In this document: positions 4,128 to 44,956 of the stretch, piece after piece
Numbering within the stretch: the stretch's first letter is position 1
Layout of the letters: each line of letters opens with the position of its first letter
NCBI GenBank assembly: GCA_020437365.1
Contig: JAGQWM010000005.1
Location: 1 to 64,000 of the forward strand
DNA length: 64,000 nt
Origin: Chitinophagaceae bacterium
GTDB lineage: Bacteria > Bacteroidota > Bacteroidia > Chitinophagales > Chitinophagaceae
Direction: 5' to 3'
Made by a program: the position numbers and the translations under genes
Notes under the pieces: generated by a model
Databases searched by the model: none
Seen by the model: only the letters and a program-made list of their open reading frames with translations
Told to the model about the DNA's origin: nothing

Positions 4128-5204
4128 ATGCCCAATACCGGAAAAAACATACAAAAAGAAAAATTTACCCGCTTGCTGATGCAGTGGCACAATACTCAAA
4201 ATAATAGGCAAATGCCCTGGAAGGGCGAAAAAGACCCTTATAAAATATGGCTGAGCGAAATTATGCTGCAGCAAACCAGGGTAGAACAAGGGCTGAAATA
4301 TTACAATCGGTTTATCAAAACTTTTCCAACAGTTCAGCAATTGGCTGCAGCTAAAGATGCCAAAGTCTTTAAGCTTTGGGAAGGGCTTGGATACTATACA
4401 AGGTGCAGAAACTTATTGGCAACGGCTCGCTATATTTCAAAAGAAAGAAATGGAGCATTTCCCAAAACTTATGAAGAAATAAAATCTTTAAAAGGGGTTG
4501 GCCCTTATACTGCTGCAGCCATTGCTTCTTTTGCATTCAATCAGCCTTATGCGGTTGTAGATGGAAATGTGTTCCGGGTGTTGGCACGGGTTTTTGGCAG
4601 TAAATTACCAATTGATTCTGCCGAAGGCAAAAAATATTTTACGGCACTTGCCAATGAATTATTGCATAAAAAAGAACCGGCATTATTCAATCAGGCAATG
4701 ATGGATTTTGGCGCCGTCGTCTGTAAACCGGTTGCACCACTTTGCGAAATTTGTATCATGTCGGAAATTTGCCGGGCCAGGCAAAAAAATATAGTTGCTC
4801 AATTGCCGGTAAAAGAAAAAAAGATTCAGATAAAAAAGCGTTGGTTTTATTTTCTCGTAATTCGTTATAAAAACGAAATTTTTGTACAACAAAGAAATCA
4901 AAAGGATATCTGGCAGGGTTTATATGAATTTCCATTGCTAGAATCAACAACGCCTTTATCCCGAAAAAAAATAGAAAAAACAATTGAAGAACAGGAATGG
5001 TTGAAGGGATCAGCTTTTGAAATCATTTCCATTTCGCCTGTTTATAAACAACAGCTTACTCACCAATTTATCCAAGGCCGGTTTATTGAAATAAAGATGC
5101 CAAAAAAACCGGAGGCAAAAACTGTTTATACGTTTGTGAAAGAACGAAAGCTAAAACAATTGCCGTTCCCGAAATTTATCAACCAATACTTGCAACAAGT
5201 TTAA
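4128..5204 (+). CDS. mutY: A/G-specific adenine glycosylase
   Basis: This base-excision repair enzyme removes adenine mispaired with 8-oxoguanine. Catalytic residues appear as E44 (WLSEIMLQQT) and D145 (VVDGNVFRV), with a helix-hairpin-helix at about 120-130 (LKGVGPYTAAA). The 4Fe-4S cluster ligands are C199, C206, C209 and C215, in the standard C-x6-C-x2-C-x5-C spacing. The last 130 residues form the NUDIX-like 8-oxoG recognition domain. Length 358 is normal. It heads the series mutY-ssb-gldE-gldD, a gene order that I recall from other Bacteroidota. Start is ATG 4128. Confidence 0.97.
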   Translation: MPNTGKNIQKEKFTRLLMQWHNTQNNRQMPWKGEKDPYKIWLSEIMLQQTRVEQGLKYYNRFIKTFPTVQQLAAAKDAKVFKLWEGLGYYTRCRNLLATARYISKERNGAFPKTYEEIKSLKGVGPYTAAAIASFAFNQPYAVVDGNVFRVLARVFGSKLPIDSAEGKKYFTALANELLHKKEPALFNQAMMDFGAVVCKPVAPLCEICIMSEICRARQKNIVAQLPVKEKKIQIKKRWFYFLVIRYKNEIFVQQRNQKDIWQGLYEFPLLESTTPLSRKKIEKTIEEQEWLKGSAFEIISISPVYKQQLTHQFIQGRFIEIKMPKKPEAKTVYTFVKERKLKQLPFPKFINQYLQQV

Positions 5205-5319
5205 AATTTGAAGGCTTTTTTATTGACCTGTAACTTAACTTTTCCTTCTGTTCAAAATAAATTAACTTTAAATAAGAATAGGAACCAACAGATAATTATT
5301 TATGTAAAAGATTAAAGTT

Positions 5320-5742
5320 ATGAGAGGCGTTAACAAAGTAATACTGATTGGGAACCTGGGCAAAGACCCCGATGTACAACATTTGGATGGCAACATTGCC
5401 GTAGCCAAATTTCCATTGGCCACAACAGAATCTTTTAAAGACAGGCATGGCAAATTAGTATCGCAAACGGAATGGCATACCGTGGTGCTATGGCGTGGGC
5501 TGGCCGAACTGGCCGAAAAATATTTACACAAAAGCAGTCTTGTGTATATTGAAGGCCGGCTGAGAACCCGCAACTGGGACGATAAAGACGGCAACCGGCG
5601 GTTTGCTACCGAAGTGGTAGGCGATAACCTGATTATGCTCGATAAAAAAAATGATGCTGACTCAGGTAGTCACGATGCAGATAGCAACAACGTAGAAGAT
5701 AATGATGATAATAACGACCCTGCCGGCAGTTTACCTTTTTAA
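5320..5742 (+). CDS. ssb: Single-stranded DNA-binding protein
   Basis: It binds single-stranded DNA during replication, repair and recombination. The N-terminal OB fold starts MRGVNKVILIGNLGKDPD and runs to about residue 108. A disordered, acidic Asp/Asn-rich linker follows, ending in the hydrophobic tip GSLPF, which corresponds to the partner-docking tail (DDDIPF in E. coli). Length 140 is typical. A partial promoter box, TAACTTTA, lies at 5263-5270, so it may be transcribed separately from mutY. Confidence 0.96.
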   Translation: MRGVNKVILIGNLGKDPDVQHLDGNIAVAKFPLATTESFKDRHGKLVSQTEWHTVVLWRGLAELAEKYLHKSSLVYIEGRLRTRNWDDKDGNRRFATEVVGDNLIMLDKKNDADSGSHDADSNNVEDNDDNNDPAGSLPF

Positions 5743-5834
5743 TTATCTGTAGGAATTCAACTAACTTTACCGCCGGATTTTATCTGTACAACCGGGCGGA
5801 GCAACAGTTTTATTTTCCGGTGTTGCAATAAAAT

Positions 5835-5842
5835 TATTTTTG
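5835..5842 (+). promoter_or_regulatory. Putative -7 box upstream of gldE
   Basis: TATTTTTG fits TAnnTTTG exactly and lies 16 bases before the TTG start of gldE. No good TTG was found at the -33 position, so the assignment rests on the -7 box alone. Confidence 0.35.
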
Positions 5843-5858
5843 TATTAAAACCCATACT

Positions 5859-7214
5859 TTGGAAGGTCATTCGATAGGCTCAATTTTTTCTTCGTTACAT
5901 ATTCCCTTACTGGCAATAGATACCAGGAGCACAACCTTGCTGGTCATTTTATTACTCTGCTTGCTGGTGCTTTCCTTTGTCATTTCCGGTGCCGAAATTG
6001 CCATCATTGCCCTGGAGAAAAAAGATATTAACCTGCTCAAAACAAAATCAAATCCTGCCGCCAAAAGAGTCATCAATTTATTAGAAGAGCCGAAAGAAGT
6101 GTATGCTTCTATGATGATGGCCGGCATATTTATCAATATCTGCATAGTTGTTATTGCCAATTTCCTGATTACAAGTTTTGTCAATTTTGGCCATTTGAAT
6201 ATGGCTTTGGTCATACTGATAAAAGTATTGGCGATTGCTTTTGTACTTATTTTTTTCGCCAAAATATTGCCAAAAGTGTGGGCTACGCAACACAGTATCT
6301 GGTTTGCCTATGGCGCATCTACCATTGTATTGCCTTTGCATTTATTGTTGCGGCGAGTGAGCCGGGTAGTTTTACATTTAGTGTATTCGGTGGGAGAAAA
6401 AGCAGGAGCCAATAAAACCGATTCCATGAGTATGCAGGAATTGGATAAAGCCATTGATGCGCAGGTAAGCGAAACGGCTTCGGTGGAAGATAGAAATATA
6501 ATGAAAGGCATTGTCAAGTTTGGCAATACGACCGTCAAACAAATTATGCGTAGCCGCATAGATGTTAGCGGTATTGATTACAGCCTTACATTCAGTGCAG
6601 TCATAAAATTGGCCGAAGCATTGCATTATTCTCGTTTGCCGGTTTATAAAAATAACCTGGATGAAGTTGTGGGCATGATTTATACCAAAGACTTAATTCC
6701 GTTTTTGCAGGAAACGGATAGTTTTGATTGGCACAGCCTGATGCGCAAACCTTATTTTGTACCGGAACAAAAACTCATTGAAGATCTATTGAAAGATTTT
6801 CAGCAAAATCGCATACACTTTGCCGTTGTTGTGGATGAATTTGGCGGCACCAGCGGAATTGCTACAATGGAAGATGTATTGGAAGAAGTTATCGGCGATA
6901 TAAAAGACGAATTTGATGAGGAAGAAAATGAAAATCGCAAAATTGATGACAACAATTATATTTTCAATGGCAAAGTCATGATGCTTGATTTGTGTAGAAT
7001 TATGCATCTGCCCATAGATACCTTTGATGAGGTAAAAGGAGAAAGCGAATCACTCGGCGGTATGATTTTGGAACTGGCAGGAGAATTGCCGGCCAAAGAT
7101 ACCGTGATTCACTGCGGCGATTTTGATTTTAAAATTTTGGGTATTGAAAAAAACAGGATTCAATTAGTGAAAGTAACCATCAAACCACATCAATTGTACG
7201 ATGAAAATAAATAA
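5859..7214 (+). CDS. gldE: Gliding motility-associated protein GldE (CNNM/CBS transporter-like)
   Basis: A membrane protein of the CNNM/CorC-like class: a DUF21 region with hydrophobic helices (about residues 25-165), two CBS domains (about 205-330, including the VVVDEFGGTSGIATMEDVLE motif) and a C-terminal CorC/HlyC domain. GldE is known to act together with GldD in gliding motility and type IX secretion of Bacteroidota. The start must be non-ATG: TTG 5859 is preferred, because an in-frame stop lies at 5829-5831 and the next internal Met is beyond residue 80, inside the membrane domain. It overlaps gldD by 14 bases, indicating coupled translation. Confidence 0.93.
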   Translation: MEGHSIGSIFSSLHIPLLAIDTRSTTLLVILLLCLLVLSFVISGAEIAIIALEKKDINLLKTKSNPAAKRVINLLEEPKEVYASMMMAGIFINICIVVIANFLITSFVNFGHLNMALVILIKVLAIAFVLIFFAKILPKVWATQHSIWFAYGASTIVLPLHLLLRRVSRVVLHLVYSVGEKAGANKTDSMSMQELDKAIDAQVSETASVEDRNIMKGIVKFGNTTVKQIMRSRIDVSGIDYSLTFSAVIKLAEALHYSRLPVYKNNLDEVVGMIYTKDLIPFLQETDSFDWHSLMRKPYFVPEQKLIEDLLKDFQQNRIHFAVVVDEFGGTSGIATMEDVLEEVIGDIKDEFDEEENENRKIDDNNYIFNGKVMMLDLCRIMHLPIDTFDEVKGESESLGGMILELAGELPAKDTVIHCGDFDFKILGIEKNRIQLVKVTIKPHQLYDENK

Positions 7215-38877: not shown

Positions 38878-38898
38878 ATAAATATTATTGAATTATGT

Positions 38899-38934
38899 AA
38901 AAAAGACAGAAGCCTTTGGGTTTCTGTCTTTTTT
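38899..38934 (+). terminator. Strong intrinsic terminator after the PDZ gene
   Basis: A 13-bp perfect stem (AAAAAAGACAGAA pairing with TTCTGTCTTTTTT) with a 10-base loop and a T-rich right arm. It separates the PDZ gene from the kinase gene downstream. Confidence 0.85.
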
Positions 38935-38981
38935 CTTACCTTTTGGTAAATTTTCTTCCGCTATAAAATTTTGCACACCTT

Positions 38982-41975
38982 ATGTGTTGCTCCATTACCC
39001 GATATTGTAAACGTTCATTTTTAATACTTGTGATTATTTTAAATTGTTCAATCGCAAATGCACAAATCACCAAAAATGTTCCATACCGTGTAATAGATGA
39101 ATCCAATCGGTTAAGTGACAACAACGTTACATGTATTTATAAAGATAATACTGGCTTTCTATGGATTGGCACAGCTTCGGGACTCGATTTATTGGATGGC
39201 TCGACAATCACAGTTTTTAAAAACAGCCCGGCCGATACGAATTCAATTAGTAATAATTATATCCAATGGGTTACACAGGATAGCAGTGGATTTTTTTGGG
39301 TTGGCACTAAAAATGGGTTAAATAAATTTGATTTTCAACAACGGAAATTTTCAACTGTTGCAGTACTAGGTTATGGAAAAGTGAATAACGACGGCATCAA
39401 TGAAATTGCGGTTGACCCTTCCAATAATCTTTATGTAACCAATGGAAAAGGATTGTTTTTTTATGACCGAAAAAAAAATATTGCTTTTCCGATAGAGCTG
39501 CCTGGCATTGGCATTGATAAAGCACAGAACAACCATATTTCTCATATTGCTTTTGACAAAAATTATACTTTATGGATAAGTACTTTCAATGGTTTGTGGA
39601 GCTATTCAATTAAAACGCACCAAATTAAAAGTGAAATCAATAGAGAAAATGATAAACAATTTGCGGGGCTTTATACCAATTTTATATTTGATCGTAGTGG
39701 CAATATATGGCTCGGCACCTGGAATAGCGGGCTGAAAGAATTTAATCCTCAAACAAAAACTGTACGGAGTTTTGCTCTACCCAACGCCAATTTTGAGATA
39801 ATTGCCCTGCAGGAAATAATTGATAATAATGGAAAAGATTTAATAATCATTAATAATCAATTGCTATGTTTTGACAAACAAACAAACAAATTCATAAGTA
39901 GATTTCCGGGTAATATTTCTGCAAATACATTTTATTTTTTTACTGATGGATTGTTTTGGGTGGGCACAAAAAAGGGAATTGTTATTTTGAAATTGGGCAA
40001 AAATTATTTTCAGCAGCATTTATTCCCCAACGAGTTAACCAGTCAGAATGTAGCGTTGCAGGAATGGAAAAATAACTTACTGGTTGGCGGAGAAAATAAA
40101 AATTTTTTAAAACTATTTGATAAAAATTTAGAAATAATTGGCGATTTCAGCAATCATATTTTATTTAAAAAAATTGATTGCCTTTCCCTATTTCCCGATG
40201 GCGAGGATGATGTTGTTTGTGGTACTACAGAAGGGATTGCCCATATTAATCTGAAAAATAATTCAACACAATTTTATCATTTGCATGATACAACAAGCCA
40301 ACAGAATTTATTGAATTTTATCAGTTTCATCTTTAAAGATTCATTTGGTCAATGGTGGATTTTCCCATGGAGAAATGGTATTTGGAAAAGCGATGCAGAT
40401 TTTTTACATCCTAAAAAAGTATTTTCAGGTTTTTTAAAACGCCATGGAGTGCAAAAGCAACTGGTCATTGCAGCAGCATGCGAAGACCAAAATAGGAATT
40501 TATGGTTTGGTGATTATGATGAAGGAATAATTTTTTACAAACGGAAAACCAATACATTTTCAAAACCATTTGTTTCCTTAATGGGTGAATTTACCAATGC
40601 TTCACAGGTTCTTTATTACAAAAATTATTGTTATTCTTTTTCCGCTTCCAATATATTGAAATGGAATACCGATAGCCTGATTTTGCATACCATTCCGGTT
40701 TCGCAGGTTACTGATAAAGATATTACTTCAATGGCATTGGATAGTTTGGGGAATTTGTGGTTATCCACTGATGAGGGTCTTGTGGTGTATAACCAGGTGA
40801 AAAAAATATTCAGGCATTTTACCATTGCTGACGGTTTGCCCGCCAATAAGATGGAAGGCAATTTATTTTGTGGTAAAAATGGAACCATGTACTTCGGAAG
40901 TGTTGATTATCTCTTACAATTTCAACCTGAAAAAGTTTTGGCATCCATTGAAAAAATTCCTGCAATACGACTGACCGAATTGTTGGTCAATAATCAAATT
41001 CAAGCAGTAGATGAAAGCAGAAAACATATTTTTTCGCCCAATGCACACAATTTCATTTTTGCATGGTCGATTTTGAGTTTTGCGGATCCACTCAACAATA
41101 AGTATTATTATCAATTAAAAGGAGTTGATAAAAATTGGCGATTTGCGGGCAATATGGGCAGAGTAGAATTTGTCAATCTTTCTCCCGGACATTATACTTT
41201 GTTGCTGAAAGGTGAAAATGAAAATGGCATCAGTGCCAATAAAATATTGCAATTTGATTTTACCATACAATTGCCTTTTTGGAAAACGACTTGGTTTGTA
41301 TTTTTAATCATTGCGTTAATGGCAATTATTTTTTACGGCTTATACCGATATAGGATAAATCATATAAGGAAACTGGAAGCACTCCGAAATAGAATTTCCC
41401 TGAATTTACATGACGATATCGGCTCTACTTTAAGCTCCATTTCTATTTTAAGTGCATTGGCATTGCACAAAGAAAAAAACAGGGAAACACAGGATATTTT
41501 AGAGACAATAAAGAATAATGCCATTTCCCTGATGGATGAAATGGATGATATCGTTTGGAGCATCAACCCCAGGAATGATTCATTACATTCACTTTTTCTC
41601 AGGATAAGAAGTTTTGCAGCAAAATTATTTGAAGCTAAAAATATAAATTATAAAATAGAAATACCCAATTCCATACTGCATATAAAAATGACAATGCAAA
41701 ACAGGCAACATTTATATTTAATTTTAAAAGAAGCCATTAATAATCTCATTAAATATTCAGCCTGTTCAGAAGCTGGCATTGCAGTAAATTTTCATAAACC
41801 ATTACTGTCAATTAGTATTGAAGACAATGGCAAAGGTTTTTCTATGAATAAAGATTATGCTGGAAATGGTTTGAAAAATATGAAAAAAAGAGCTGATGCA
41901 TTAGGAGCAAATTTAAAAATTCAATCGAAAGATAATGAGGGAACTAAAGTAAACCTTACTTTAAAAATCAAATGA
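38982..41975 (+). CDS. Beta-propeller sensor histidine kinase
   Basis: A large two-component sensor. A signal or anchor segment (about 10-28) is followed by a periplasmic two-component-regulator beta-propeller with repeated N-x-LWIGT/LWLST-like blades to about residue 660, a Y_Y_Y domain to about 765, one membrane helix (about 771-793), a HisKA_3 dimerisation domain with phospho-acceptor H810 (NLHDDIGSTLS) and an HATPase_c domain with EAINNLIKYS and DNGKGF. Unlike SusR-type hybrids it has no receiver or AraC domain, so it signals through the separate regulator 51 bases downstream. Ligand unknown. Confidence 0.93.
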   Translation: MCCSITRYCKRSFLILVIILNCSIANAQITKNVPYRVIDESNRLSDNNVTCIYKDNTGFLWIGTASGLDLLDGSTITVFKNSPADTNSISNNYIQWVTQDSSGFFWVGTKNGLNKFDFQQRKFSTVAVLGYGKVNNDGINEIAVDPSNNLYVTNGKGLFFYDRKKNIAFPIELPGIGIDKAQNNHISHIAFDKNYTLWISTFNGLWSYSIKTHQIKSEINRENDKQFAGLYTNFIFDRSGNIWLGTWNSGLKEFNPQTKTVRSFALPNANFEIIALQEIIDNNGKDLIIINNQLLCFDKQTNKFISRFPGNISANTFYFFTDGLFWVGTKKGIVILKLGKNYFQQHLFPNELTSQNVALQEWKNNLLVGGENKNFLKLFDKNLEIIGDFSNHILFKKIDCLSLFPDGEDDVVCGTTEGIAHINLKNNSTQFYHLHDTTSQQNLLNFISFIFKDSFGQWWIFPWRNGIWKSDADFLHPKKVFSGFLKRHGVQKQLVIAAACEDQNRNLWFGDYDEGIIFYKRKTNTFSKPFVSLMGEFTNASQVLYYKNYCYSFSASNILKWNTDSLILHTIPVSQVTDKDITSMALDSLGNLWLSTDEGLVVYNQVKKIFRHFTIADGLPANKMEGNLFCGKNGTMYFGSVDYLLQFQPEKVLASIEKIPAIRLTELLVNNQIQAVDESRKHIFSPNAHNFIFAWSILSFADPLNNKYYYQLKGVDKNWRFAGNMGRVEFVNLSPGHYTLLLKGENENGISANKILQFDFTIQLPFWKTTWFVFLIIALMAIIFYGLYRYRINHIRKLEALRNRISLNLHDDIGSTLSSISILSALALHKEKNRETQDILETIKNNAISLMDEMDDIVWSINPRNDSLHSLFLRIRSFAAKLFEAKNINYKIEIPNSILHIKMTMQNRQHLYLILKEAINNLIKYSACSEAGIAVNFHKPLLSISIEDNGKGFSMNKDYAGNGLKNMKKRADALGANLKIQSKDNEGTKVNLTLKIK

Positions 41976-42026
41976 ATATATGATACTCGATGACACTACA
42001 ATTTTTCAAATTTGTAATCTAAAAAA

Positions 42027-42656
42027 ATGAATGTGATTAGCGTTGCCATTATAGAAGATAATGAAACATTAAGAAAATCGCTATCCGATTTATTAAATAT
42101 TGCTGAAGGAATTCAATGCATTTTGGCCTTGCCCAATTTATTGAATGTAGTCAGTGAATTTCGAAAGCAGTTACCTTCCATTGTATTAATGGATATTGGC
42201 CTGCCACATATTTCGGGCATCGAAGGAGTCAGATTAGTCAAGGAAAATTTTGATAATGTAGAAGTGATAATGTTTACAGTATTTGATGATGACGAAAAAA
42301 TATTTGACGCTATTAAAGCCGGTGCTTCAGGTTATTTATTAAAAAAGTCTTCACCGTCAGAAATTATTGAAGCTGTTTTTTCGTTGCATAATGGCGGTGC
42401 CCCAATGAGTGCTTCCATAGCCAGGAAAGTGATAAATTCTTTTCACAATAATACCAGTACGCCTAAAAAAACATTTTCATTAACAACAAGAGAAAGTGAA
42501 ATTTTGCATTCATTGGTAGATGGGTTTAGTTATCAGAAACTGGCTGAAAAATATTTTATTAGCATTAGCACTGTTCGTACACATATCAAACACATCTATG
42601 AGAAATTGCATGTGAATTCAAAAGCTGAAGCCGTAGCCAAGATTCTGAAAAACTAA
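42027..42656 (+). CDS. NarL/FixJ-type response regulator
   Basis: A 209-residue DNA-binding regulator, partner of the kinase upstream. Its receiver domain has the acidic pocket E10-D11 and phospho-acceptor D56 (VLMDIGLP), Thr at TVFDDD and Lys at LLKKSSPSE. The C-terminal LuxR-type helix-turn-helix (about 149-209) contains LTTRESEILHSLVDGFSYQK and STVRTHIKHIYEKL. Together with the HisKA_3 kinase it makes a canonical NarL-type pair. Likely targets include the OmpA-like gene 87 bases downstream (inference). Confidence 0.95.
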   Translation: MNVISVAIIEDNETLRKSLSDLLNIAEGIQCILALPNLLNVVSEFRKQLPSIVLMDIGLPHISGIEGVRLVKENFDNVEVIMFTVFDDDEKIFDAIKAGASGYLLKKSSPSEIIEAVFSLHNGGAPMSASIARKVINSFHNNTSTPKKTFSLTTRESEILHSLVDGFSYQKLAEKYFISISTVRTHIKHIYEKLHVNSKAEAVAKILKN

Positions 42657-42743
42657 TCAACAGGAAAAAATCCCGGAAATCATATTTTCATACGATTGAC
42701 TTGAGAGCTGTTTTATATTTTTTTTGTATCTAAACGAACAGCC

Positions 42744-43901
42744 ATGAAAAAGTTATTTTTTTTGATTGTATTTATTACAGTTGCCGGAACATTTAGCAGC
42801 CAGGCACAGTTTTTTAAGAAATTAAAAGATAAAGTAAAACAAGCAACGGAAGACAAAGCTGCCAAAGAAGGCGAAAATACAAATGAGAATACAAAAACCG
42901 GTAAAATAAATTCTATCTCCGGCGATGCTACAAATGGTACAGCAACAATAAAATCGTATCAGAATTATGATTTTGTTCCCGGCGATACATTAATTTTTGT
43001 ATCGAATCTGCCGGACGAGCAAACCGGCGAAATTCCTTCGCAGTTCACTATACTGGATGGGCAAATAGACATCCAGGCCGTTGATGGTGAGAATGTGATT
43101 CATATACCCAAAGGTGCCGGTGCCACTTTTACGCCAAGAATGGAAAAGCAAACTTATATGCCGGATCAATTTACAATTGAATTTGATTTTAAAAATGAAA
43201 ATTTTGGAATCAATCATTTATCGGTTGATTTTGGAAATCGGGTTTACTATGCACAAGACCCTGCTATTATGCCTGGTATTTCATTTTATAGTTCAAGTCT
43301 CACCTGGTCACTCGGCGATATGGATTATCCGGCTGATTTGCAAACCGGTACAGATAAGCCGATGATATGGCATCATTTTGCGATAGCTATTAACAATAAT
43401 ATCGGCAAAGCATATATTGACCAATATCGTGTGGTCAATGTCAATAACCTGACAGGCAAACCCAAAAATGTTACGATTCATGTAGATGGGTATGAAAATT
43501 CATTTATAAAAAATATTACCATCGCAAAAGGTGGAATAAACCTGTACAAACAAAAAACAACTCCAGCAAAAATTATCATGAAAGGTATTTTGTTTGATGT
43601 AGATAAAGCAAGTTTACGACCACAATCAATGGGTTCTATCAATGAAATATACAACCTGATGAAAAAAGATAATTCATTGAAATTTGAGATTGATGGACAT
43701 ACCGATAATACGGGCAATGGTGCACACAATCAGATTTTATCTCAACAAAGAGCAGATGCAGTTAAAACACAATTAGTCAGTATGGGAATTGATGGTAACA
43801 GGCTTACAACAAAAGGATTTGGTGATACCATGCCAATTGATACAAACGATACACCTGAAGGAAGAGCCAATAACAGGAGAGTAGAATTTGTGAAGAAGTA
43901 A
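42744..43901 (+). CDS. OmpA-family outer-membrane protein with a lectin-like middle domain
   Basis: A 385-residue exported protein: signal peptide (about 1-22), a short Lys-rich helix, a beta-rich middle region (about 75-260) resembling a concanavalin A/LamG-like fold, and a C-terminal OmpA peptidoglycan-binding domain (about 275-385) with ILFDVDKASLRPQS, IDGHTDNTGN and GRANNRRVEF. No N-terminal transmembrane barrel is visible, so it may be periplasmic or lipid-independent. It may be a target of the regulator just upstream. Start ATG 42744. Confidence 0.85.
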   Translation: MKKLFFLIVFITVAGTFSSQAQFFKKLKDKVKQATEDKAAKEGENTNENTKTGKINSISGDATNGTATIKSYQNYDFVPGDTLIFVSNLPDEQTGEIPSQFTILDGQIDIQAVDGENVIHIPKGAGATFTPRMEKQTYMPDQFTIEFDFKNENFGINHLSVDFGNRVYYAQDPAIMPGISFYSSSLTWSLGDMDYPADLQTGTDKPMIWHHFAIAINNNIGKAYIDQYRVVNVNNLTGKPKNVTIHVDGYENSFIKNITIAKGGINLYKQKTTPAKIIMKGILFDVDKASLRPQSMGSINEIYNLMKKDNSLKFEIDGHTDNTGNGAHNQILSQQRADAVKTQLVSMGIDGNRLTTKGFGDTMPIDTNDTPEGRANNRRVEFVKK

Positions 43902-43929
43902 AGATGAATTGTATCAAAAAAATGACCAA

Positions 43930-44838
43930 ATGAAAAAACTGTTTTCTTTATTTATTTTTTTGAATGTTGGTTTGTTGGCAATAGCTCAGAATAAAGCTTT
44001 AGGGAATGATTATTTTTTTATTCCAGGCGACGATGTTACTATTCCACCCGGTGGGAAAATTACACTACGTGTAAAGCAAATGGTAAATGATATACCAACT
44101 GATGCATTCATAAAAAACGAACAATGGACCATTGACGGGAAAGATTTGGCAGCACAAAATCCGAAAGAAGGTGTGTTTACATTAGAAAGGTTACAATTGG
44201 ACAGGGGCGTTTATACGGCACCGGCCGCACCACCGCCCAATAATCCTGTTATTATTACAATAAGTTTTCAGCCCGAGGGCAAAACAGAAAAAATCATATT
44301 GTATTGTTACGTTCATATTTTGAATTATGAAAACTTTTTTTACCTGAAAAAACCCAATGTTCCGGAAGGAAGTTTATTTGAATTAAAAGAGTCTCCTTTA
44401 GCCTCTTCTAGAAAAATGAGAGAAACGGCTTATTATAGTAATGATGAATGGGTGCTGGGCATACAAGGATTTAGAAAATCATCCAAAGAGGATGCAGCGC
44501 CTCAGTTAATGACAATGGGCTTAAGTTTTGTTGGCAATGCAACAGGTACTTATGAATGGTCAGTGCATGGCGATAATAAAACCGGATTGACTCCGCCTTG
44601 TAATACGGTTTCGGTGAATGGGCTTACAGATAGCGGTTCTCCATTTCTTTATATCTCTTCAGACTGTGTGGCACATGGTGATAATCATTGCAAATTGGTG
44701 ACTTTAGAAGGAAGTACAACCATTACAATTTTTGACAAAAAAAACAAAATTATAAAAGGTTATTTTTCGGGAATTTTGATTTCTCCGGAATTCGAATATG
44801 TTACAGTATCAGGTGCATTCTCAGTTTTTATGCAATAA
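43930..44838 (+). CDS. Exported beta-rich protein, function unknown
   Basis: A 302-residue protein with a signal peptide (MKKLFSLFIFLNVGLLAIAQ) followed by beta-rich sequence. A central Pro-rich segment (APAAPPPNNP, near 95) looks like a linker between Ig-like parts. I recognise no family. I start at ATG 43930 because it opens the signal peptide directly. It follows the OmpA-like gene by 28 bases and is probably in the same transcript. Confidence 0.7.
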   Translation: MKKLFSLFIFLNVGLLAIAQNKALGNDYFFIPGDDVTIPPGGKITLRVKQMVNDIPTDAFIKNEQWTIDGKDLAAQNPKEGVFTLERLQLDRGVYTAPAAPPPNNPVIITISFQPEGKTEKIILYCYVHILNYENFFYLKKPNVPEGSLFELKESPLASSRKMRETAYYSNDEWVLGIQGFRKSSKEDAAPQLMTMGLSFVGNATGTYEWSVHGDNKTGLTPPCNTVSVNGLTDSGSPFLYISSDCVAHGDNHCKLVTLEGSTTITIFDKKNKIIKGYFSGILISPEFEYVTVSGAFSVFMQ

Positions 44839-44938
44839 ACCTTAGTTTTTTTTTAAAAATCAATTTTCTATAATTCAATAGAAAGACTTTTCATTATTTG
44901 ATCAATACAATTCATCAGTTTCCTCATTTTTATTCCTG

Positions 44939-44946
44939 TATTTTTG
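44939..44946 (+). promoter_or_regulatory. Putative -7 box of gatB
   Basis: TATTTTTG matches TAnnTTTG exactly, 10 bases before the gatB ATG. No TTG is found 19-22 bases upstream, so support is partial. Confidence 0.4.
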
Positions 44947-44956
44947 CCACCGTTTT

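Follow-up and report, generated by a model that had tools for sequence, protein, structure and literature searches.

We describe a locus in a 64,000-nucleotide stretch of a Chitinophagaceae genome (assembly GCA_020437365.1, contig JAGQWM010000005.1, positions 1 to 64,000; hereafter the window) that reads as a dedicated two-component cassette equipped with an output operon. In this reading, whose probability we put at roughly 0.8, a sensor histidine kinase and a separate NarL-type response regulator would activate an adjacent operon headed by ompA, the gene for an exported protein with an OmpA domain and a lectin-like domain (the OmpA/lectin protein), with sensors that are exchangeable among loci and a cargo that varies. 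A preliminary description of the window, made from its letters alone, had suggested an envelope-sensing module with its own output. As a whole that interpretation is partly supported. For the part about a module with an output of its own the support is good: gene neighbourhood, the position of the four genes between two that adjoin in congeners, and an operator type that follows regulator lineage.

The locus lies in a genome of 2.63 Mb in 161 contigs. Four open reading frames (ORFs) on one strand, of 997, 209, 385 and 302 amino acids, were confirmed at these coordinates, together with predicted control sites:

38982..41975, + strand: sensor histidine kinase, 997 amino acids (ORF, Pfam, motif residues; propeller matched by sequence)
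42027..42656, + strand: NarL/LuxR-type response regulator, 209 amino acids, receiver plus GerE helix-turn-helix, D56 (ORF, Pfam, NCBIfam, motif residues)
42678..42697, + strand: predicted operator, type A dyad AATCATATTTTCATACGATT, 20 bp, centre about -43.5 (profile and pattern scans)
42719..42726, + strand: predicted -7 box TTTTTTTG (offset common to related promoters; consensus as in an excerpt of PMC9723704)
42744..43901, + strand: exported OmpA/lectin protein, 385 amino acids (Pfam, structure model, fold matches, signal peptide)
43930..44838, + strand: exported 302-residue protein, fold not assigned (ORF, signal peptide-like start, relatives after OmpA)
41965..41985, - strand: possible weak second operator copy with 3 mismatches, at the kinase/regulator junction (pattern scan)

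The gap between the regulator gene and ompA is 87 nt and that between ompA and the gene for the 302-residue protein 28 nt, in agreement with the spacing first described (fewer than 90 bases, then 28). The 302-residue count runs from an ATG; the mechanical ORF begins at a TTG at 43909.

The association of a two-component system with this OmpA/lectin gene recurs across the family. Homologues collected with a three-row profile at E <= 1e-45 came from 102 of the 394 family genomes, representing 48 of 101 genera. The top tier comprised 43 loci (the window, L092, L093 and 40 more taken nearly in rank order), and comparison loci were 20 from the mid tier, 20 from the low tier and 10 distant OmpA/lectin genes of the same genus, with random genes not among the controls. 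A regulator lay within 4 kb of ompA in 36 of the 43 top-tier loci, counting the hybrid of L158, and a kinase or regulator within that distance in 38 of 43, as against 8 of 20 mid-tier, 11 of 20 low-tier and 1 of 10 distant same-genus loci; L169 and L176 had only a kinase-like match. Kinase and regulator both lay upstream on the ompA strand in 25 of 43, and, once L076 was added to make 44 loci, 20 had a regulator within 1 kb by a stricter regulator score. Among named loci, 36 of the best 80 of 441 had a two-component gene within 4 kb, some of them duplicating other loci read, and copies of the OmpA/lectin gene in Pontibacter, Rufibacter and Eudoraea had none at that distance. Hydrotalea flava and Thermoflavifilum thermophilum, both of which carry the module, belong to the Chitinophagaceae in the NCBI taxonomy. 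Among the genomes first searched, the ten OmpA relatives for which the neighbourhood was read were about 27-29% identical.

A shared motif upstream of 42744, for which the preliminary description had proposed a search, was indeed recovered. The dyad, first noticed by listing the gaps between regulator and ompA, was scored with a leave-one-out profile over 430 nt around ompA starts at 94 loci with 200 resamples. Scores of at least 21.3 marked the window's type A dyad in 17 of the 94 upstream regions, the next best being 6.7; each of the 17 sites had p = 0.005, the smallest value possible, and chance alone would give about 0.5 among 94. Of these 17, 15 had been picked by a regular expression as the starting sites, and those of L171 and L187 came from the profile alone. 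Of the 19 loci with a window-type regulator, 16 had a type A dyad; none of the 44 with other regulators did, and 1 of the 30 with no regulator did (Fisher p 2.6e-12, relatedness ignored). The association was kept within OmpA strata (8/10 vs 0/4; 8/9 vs 0/25). Different dyads, CTCACACTTTTTTGTGATTG (type B) and AATCCCC..TTT..GGGGATT-like (type C), accompanied the other regulators. Two loci (L157, L245) have an OmpA of the window clade yet carry type-B regulators and type-B-like operators.

Operator type followed the regulator more closely than the OmpA protein. Trees were built from 55 of 63 regulators, eight low-scoring ones being omitted, and from the corresponding 55 OmpA proteins, with 33 rows labelled. 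On the regulator tree the three operator labels could be explained by 2 changes, the fewest possible, whereas the OmpA tree required 11. We read this agreement as probable cognate pairing of regulator and operator. Operator and regulator are not always close neighbours: in L155, L165 and L166 the operator lies about 2.7-3.1 kb from the regulator gene with other genes between, and in a divergent class the regulator sits about 2 kb from the operator, beyond the kinase.

The dyad also stands at a rigid distance from a candidate promoter. Measured from the dyad's GATTG/GATAG end, the TTT of a -7 box starts precisely 24 nt later at 15 of the 17 type-A sites and 9 of the 10 of type B; in 2000 shuffles the largest count at any offset was 6 for type A and 4 for type B. 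The whole TAnnTTTG-like box starts a fixed 20 nt after the dyad, type B mostly reading TTTA. The Bacteroidota -7 box has the consensus TAnnTTTG at positions -12 to -5, according to an excerpt of PMC9723704. Because the -7 box lies from -12 to -5, transcription would start near 42731 and the dyad would be centred near -43.5. This is a typical place for a class-II activator, and the position of the site relative to the promoter suggests that the regulator activates rather than represses. A generic sigma-70 promoter scan of the window stayed near the shuffle mean (44 vs 33.6, standard deviation 7.6).

Genome-wide scans point to a local circuit that mainly controls one operon. The 12 genomes chosen comprised 11 with a window-type regulator and one (G587) with a type-B regulator. 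The exact pattern AATCANNNNTTNATNCGATNG occurred at 14 sites, 13 of them in the module locus: before ompA, at a gene for a cholesterol-dependent cytolysin-like (CDC-like) protein (G058, G264), or ahead of a different island gene (G413, G506). The window genome has one exact site, before ompA, and G587 has no exact type-A site. The sole exact match outside the locus among the 12 genomes (G506 C25:26972-26992) is a possible second target. With one mismatch allowed there were 46 sites in total, compared with 4 for a reversed-pattern control, all in G327. The three-mismatch copy at the kinase/regulator junction, a pattern for which shuffles average 0.08 matches per window, may reflect autoregulation or chance.

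In congeners the flanks of the module are neighbours. The genus search covered 42 genomes and recovered the PDZ gene in 22 others and gatB in 23 others; the 19 genomes without a PDZ match are uninformative, 17 of them being at most 2.1 Mb. The two genes lie side by side in 20 of 22 congeners, about 101-245 nt apart, and on separate contigs in G010 and G639. In the window, 6,079 nt separate them, a space occupied by the four module genes. Since the flanking genes are adjacent in 20 of 22 congeners, insertion of the four genes between them is the simpler reading, the alternative being loss in the other congeners. The junctions are:

38878..38981, no strand: left junction, from the PDZ-gene stop to the kinase start (terminator-like hairpin at 38899-38934)
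44839..44956, no strand: right junction, from the module end to the gatB start (TATTTTTGCC element, by eye)

By eye, congeners too have hairpin-like repeats after the PDZ gene, and the TATTTTTGCC element resembles that before gatB in many of them. The hairpin after the PDZ gene was the strongest site in a terminator scan whose total was near the shuffle mean (6 vs 4.7, standard deviation 2.0). Module G+C is slightly lower than that of the flanks (about 0.32-0.36 vs 0.36-0.39) and lends weak support.

The two signalling proteins are NarL-type two-component proteins by family criteria, with HisKA_3 and HATPase_c in the kinase, a receiver and GerE domain in the regulator, and catalytic residues in both. 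The kinase runs from a signal peptide-like hydrophobic start through a Reg_prop propeller (86 bits), a Y_Y_Y domain (residues 700-762, 53 bits) and a hydrophobic segment, the single strong one (residues about 769-787), to HisKA_3 (31 bits) with its phospho-acceptor motif (H810) and HATPase_c (39 bits) with N/G-box motifs. Pfam thus bore out the full sensor with a separate regulator that had first been described, and it gave no Response_reg or HTH_18 match within the 997 residues. By sequence, the propeller part resembles the solved sensor ectodomains 4a2l, 3v9f and 3ott. The best kinase homologues in congeners occupy other surroundings; those at the head of the list share about 33-39% identity across the C-terminal half. 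The regulator matched Response_reg (77 bits) and GerE (56 bits) with D11, D56, T84 and K106 all present. It fell below the cut-off for each named NarL-family system tested (NarL, MctR, MadR, UhpA); its best NCBIfam equivalog scores were 127.9 bits for MctR (cut-off 300) and 117.9 for NarL (cut-off 250).

The predicted target is an exported OmpA protein. Its 385 residues run from a signal peptide-like start through a linker modelled at low confidence to a lectin-like sandwich (about 76-262) and an OmpA peptidoglycan-binding domain (residues 283-378; PF00691, 85.8 bits, cut-off 27.2) whose closest solved structure is C. gingivalis 5wtp (Z 20.1, 1.8 A, 117 aligned). The structure model had a mean predicted local distance difference test score (pLDDT) of 77.8 and a predicted template-modelling score of 0.53, with block-mean pLDDT of 91-97 (residues 81-160) and 86-97 (residues 211-260) in the lectin-like region. 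Fold comparison of residues 76-267 matched galectin-like 1oq1 (Z 15.6, 2.7 A over 171 aligned residues) and the ERGIC-53 lectin 4ygb (Z 15.2, 2.8 A over 162). These matches and the high pLDDT support the lectin-like middle domain proposed at the outset, with a predicted Concanavalin A-like or L-type lectin jelly-roll sandwich fold. The OmpA domain occupied most of the structure-match list, so that the lectin part may also resemble families outside it, and Pfam lectin families gave no match over cut-off in the protein. The N-terminal part of the model consists of the signal-peptide helix, linker and sandwich, with no eight-strand outer-membrane barrel, and a cysteine search of the 385 residues found none and hence no lipobox. 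Given a signal peptide and neither lipobox nor barrel, the protein is probably periplasmic. Its lectin-like domain may bind glycan.

The gene after ompA is the variable part of the locus. The 302-residue protein has a signal peptide-like start, no Pfam match at E <= 0.1, a sub-threshold NCBIfam match (Riean_0653, 21.5 bits, cut-off 57) and a discarded structure model (five-row alignment, mean pLDDT 29.8). In the first search it matched its own genome alone, the 57 further genomes, which included 34 congeners, giving nothing; a search of 298 order members gave 7 others at E <= 0.01, all weak save one (4e-10). Profile and neighbourhood searches overturned the idea that it is an orphan: its N-terminal half is akin to the protein after OmpA in Thermoflavifilum-type loci, and its C-terminal part shares 60% identity with an ORF that comes after ompA in a Chitinophagaceae metagenome-assembled genome (L236). 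On the low-coverage contig concerned, the upstream portion of this gene is in a different frame. Counting the window, 10 of the 43 top-tier loci were found to carry a relative, several of them recognised by weak matches; the core is therefore three genes, with a variable fourth slot. The conserved four-gene order envisaged at first accordingly stands for the regulator near OmpA and falls away for the fourth gene.

Sensors vary as well. In two genomes of another genus of the family, kinase, regulator, an extra gene and an OmpA protein (56-58% identical by BLAST) are followed by a larger protein that replaces the 302-residue one and then by more exported proteins, and the sensor is of the 7TMR-DISM type (Pfam, L092). 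Across the top tier the adjacent kinase was propeller-like in 18 loci, and 7TMR-DISM-like as in L092 in 6, one of which, L185, has both; 7 loci had an opposite-strand kinase of 661-683 residues, with a tetratricopeptide repeat (TPR) by Pfam in L172 and also in L076 of the distant set; classes were checked with Pfam in L092, L158, L172 and L076 and assigned by similarity in the remaining loci. Window-type regulators pair with propeller and with 7TMR-like sensors, and because these regulators and their operators also accompany 7TMR-DISM-like sensors, the propeller is not a defining part of the module.

Further arrangements were seen at related loci. In L158 (G502 C119; same record as L242), an ompA of the window clade diverges from a true hybrid two-component system (HTCS) with AraC output. 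Regulators of about 250 residues adjoin the OmpA/lectin gene in L163, L197, L204, L285, L287, L291, L292, L294, L305 and L312; in the first three the C-terminal part is LytTR-like by eye, a further regulator class at this gene. Paired OmpA/lectin genes lie about 8-40 kb apart on one contig in L161 and L167, and also in G409, G460 and G539; several uncharacterised, probably exported proteins lie between those of L161 and L167. In the Thermoflavifilum thermophilum locus (L093; same record as L247), a PF01289 gene (4621-6486) stands between regulator and OmpA, scoring 32.5 bits for this Thiol-activated-cytolysin-like family (cut-off 25), with an operator at its start. A CDC-like gene is partial in L092 (9635-10327), and another was found by similarity in mid-tier L209. 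We dropped CDC-like genes as a regular part of the module, as among the 43 top-tier loci they were found in L093 and, in partial form, in L092.

Together, these data suggest the following course. A cue outside the inner membrane would be sensed by the propeller/Y_Y_Y domain, and the HisKA_3 kinase would phosphorylate the separate NarL-type regulator. A regulator dimer would then bind the 20-bp dyad at 42678-42697, near -43, and recruit RNA polymerase to the Bacteroidota -7 box in a class-II-like activation, switching on ompA and the 302-residue gene together, presumably as one transcript. The OmpA domain of the product would grip peptidoglycan and present the lectin-like domain, accompanied by a second exported protein. 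Regulator binding, co-transcription and protein compartments are predictions from sequence.

Several observations weigh against this reading. Five of 43 top-tier loci lack any two-component gene, two of them near contig ends, and proximity is more frequent in the low tier (11/20) than in the mid tier (8/20). At the operator, L092 and L093 have a window-type regulator with the site preceding an interposed gene, L182 carries its own dyad, and the window's -7 box TTTTTTTG is without the consensus TA. L176 (G531 C29) has a strong type-A operator before OmpA and no regulator within 4 kb, its regulator being lost or acting from elsewhere. One-mismatch sites (32 of 46) could be further targets. In the tree comparison, type B and C labels were assigned partly by eye, and some branches are long. 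Nor are the labels randomly placed on the OmpA tree, where shuffled labels average 14.5 changes and come down to 11 in 5 of 200 cases. Support for a single type-A origin on the regulator tree is 63/84, with 72% of bootstrap trees. Joint transfer of regulator and intergenic operator could explain part of the agreement, because the operator often lies between regulator and ompA, although in L155, L165 and L166 the two stand kilobases apart.

Among other explanations, the locus might be an antagonism or surface-defence island, in which the sensor would turn on a lectin-like protein anchored to peptidoglycan together with a changing set of exported effectors. The CDC-like pore former of Thermoflavifilum, with the operator at its start, and the downstream genes that vary among loci fit this idea, and CDC-like proteins (CDCLs) of Bacteroidota kill bacteria, according to an excerpt of PMC11169675. 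We nevertheless consider it unlikely, given how few loci carry CDC-like genes, the lack of a PF01289 match in the 8 window proteins scanned with Pfam and the lack of a Pfam match for the 302-residue protein. It is quite unlikely that the dyad is a repressor site or belongs to another regulator, with the two-component genes and ompA brought together by a surface-gene island: the direction of control does rest on site position, and L176 has the dyad without a nearby regulator, but the dyad varies with regulator lineage, fits the regulator tree better than the OmpA tree and keeps a rigid spacing to the -7 box. Chance juxtaposition of a common Bacteroidota sensor pair and a common OmpA protein is very improbable, for although both families are abundant and distant same-genus OmpA/lectin genes mostly stand alone, a regulator accompanies 36 of 43 close homologues and the four genes sit between two genes adjacent in congeners.

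A bolder extension of the dedicated-cassette reading would have the locus be a plug-and-play surface-arming cassette. Regulator and operator would be exchanged as a pair before a constant OmpA/lectin anchor at a rigid promoter geometry, with sensors swapped (propeller, 7TMR-DISM, TPR, hybrid HTCS, LytTR-like) and exported cargo changing, pore-former-like proteins included, and the whole module would be mobile between genomes as an antagonism or attachment island. We regard this extension as doubtful.

The nearest described kinds are HTCS (PMC11253607) and CDCL systems (PMC11169675). HTCS of Bacteroides polysaccharide loci share the propeller plus Y_Y_Y sensor within Bacteroidota, and they control neighbouring genes for exported proteins. 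In the window, by contrast, kinase and regulator are separate, the kinase is of the HisKA_3 type, the output is GerE instead of AraC, and the probable target is an OmpA/lectin operon. The NarX/NarL, UhpB/UhpA and LiaS systems likewise combine a HisKA_3 kinase with a receiver-GerE regulator, but the module falls below each curated NCBIfam cut-off and has a propeller sensor and a predicted dedicated local target. OmpA/Pal-type proteins share the C-terminal OmpA domain; the module protein has a lectin-like sandwich in place of the beta-barrel. CDCL loci of Bacteroidota resemble the Thermoflavifilum version in its PF01289 protein and differ from the window, where the proteins scanned include none. 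OmpA has no mention in the main text of PMC11169675, a search that did not extend to sensor kinases. The literature searched, which misses most subscription papers, yielded no published description of the module and none of the target or signal of a non-hybrid propeller kinase.

For such a kinase, the module supplies a promoter, an operator and a predicted target. Distinct dyads accompany three regulator lineages while occupying one and the same promoter position, which makes a natural data set for how NarL-type DNA specificity changes, and with so few predicted targets the signal of the propeller kinase would be testable with a single reporter.

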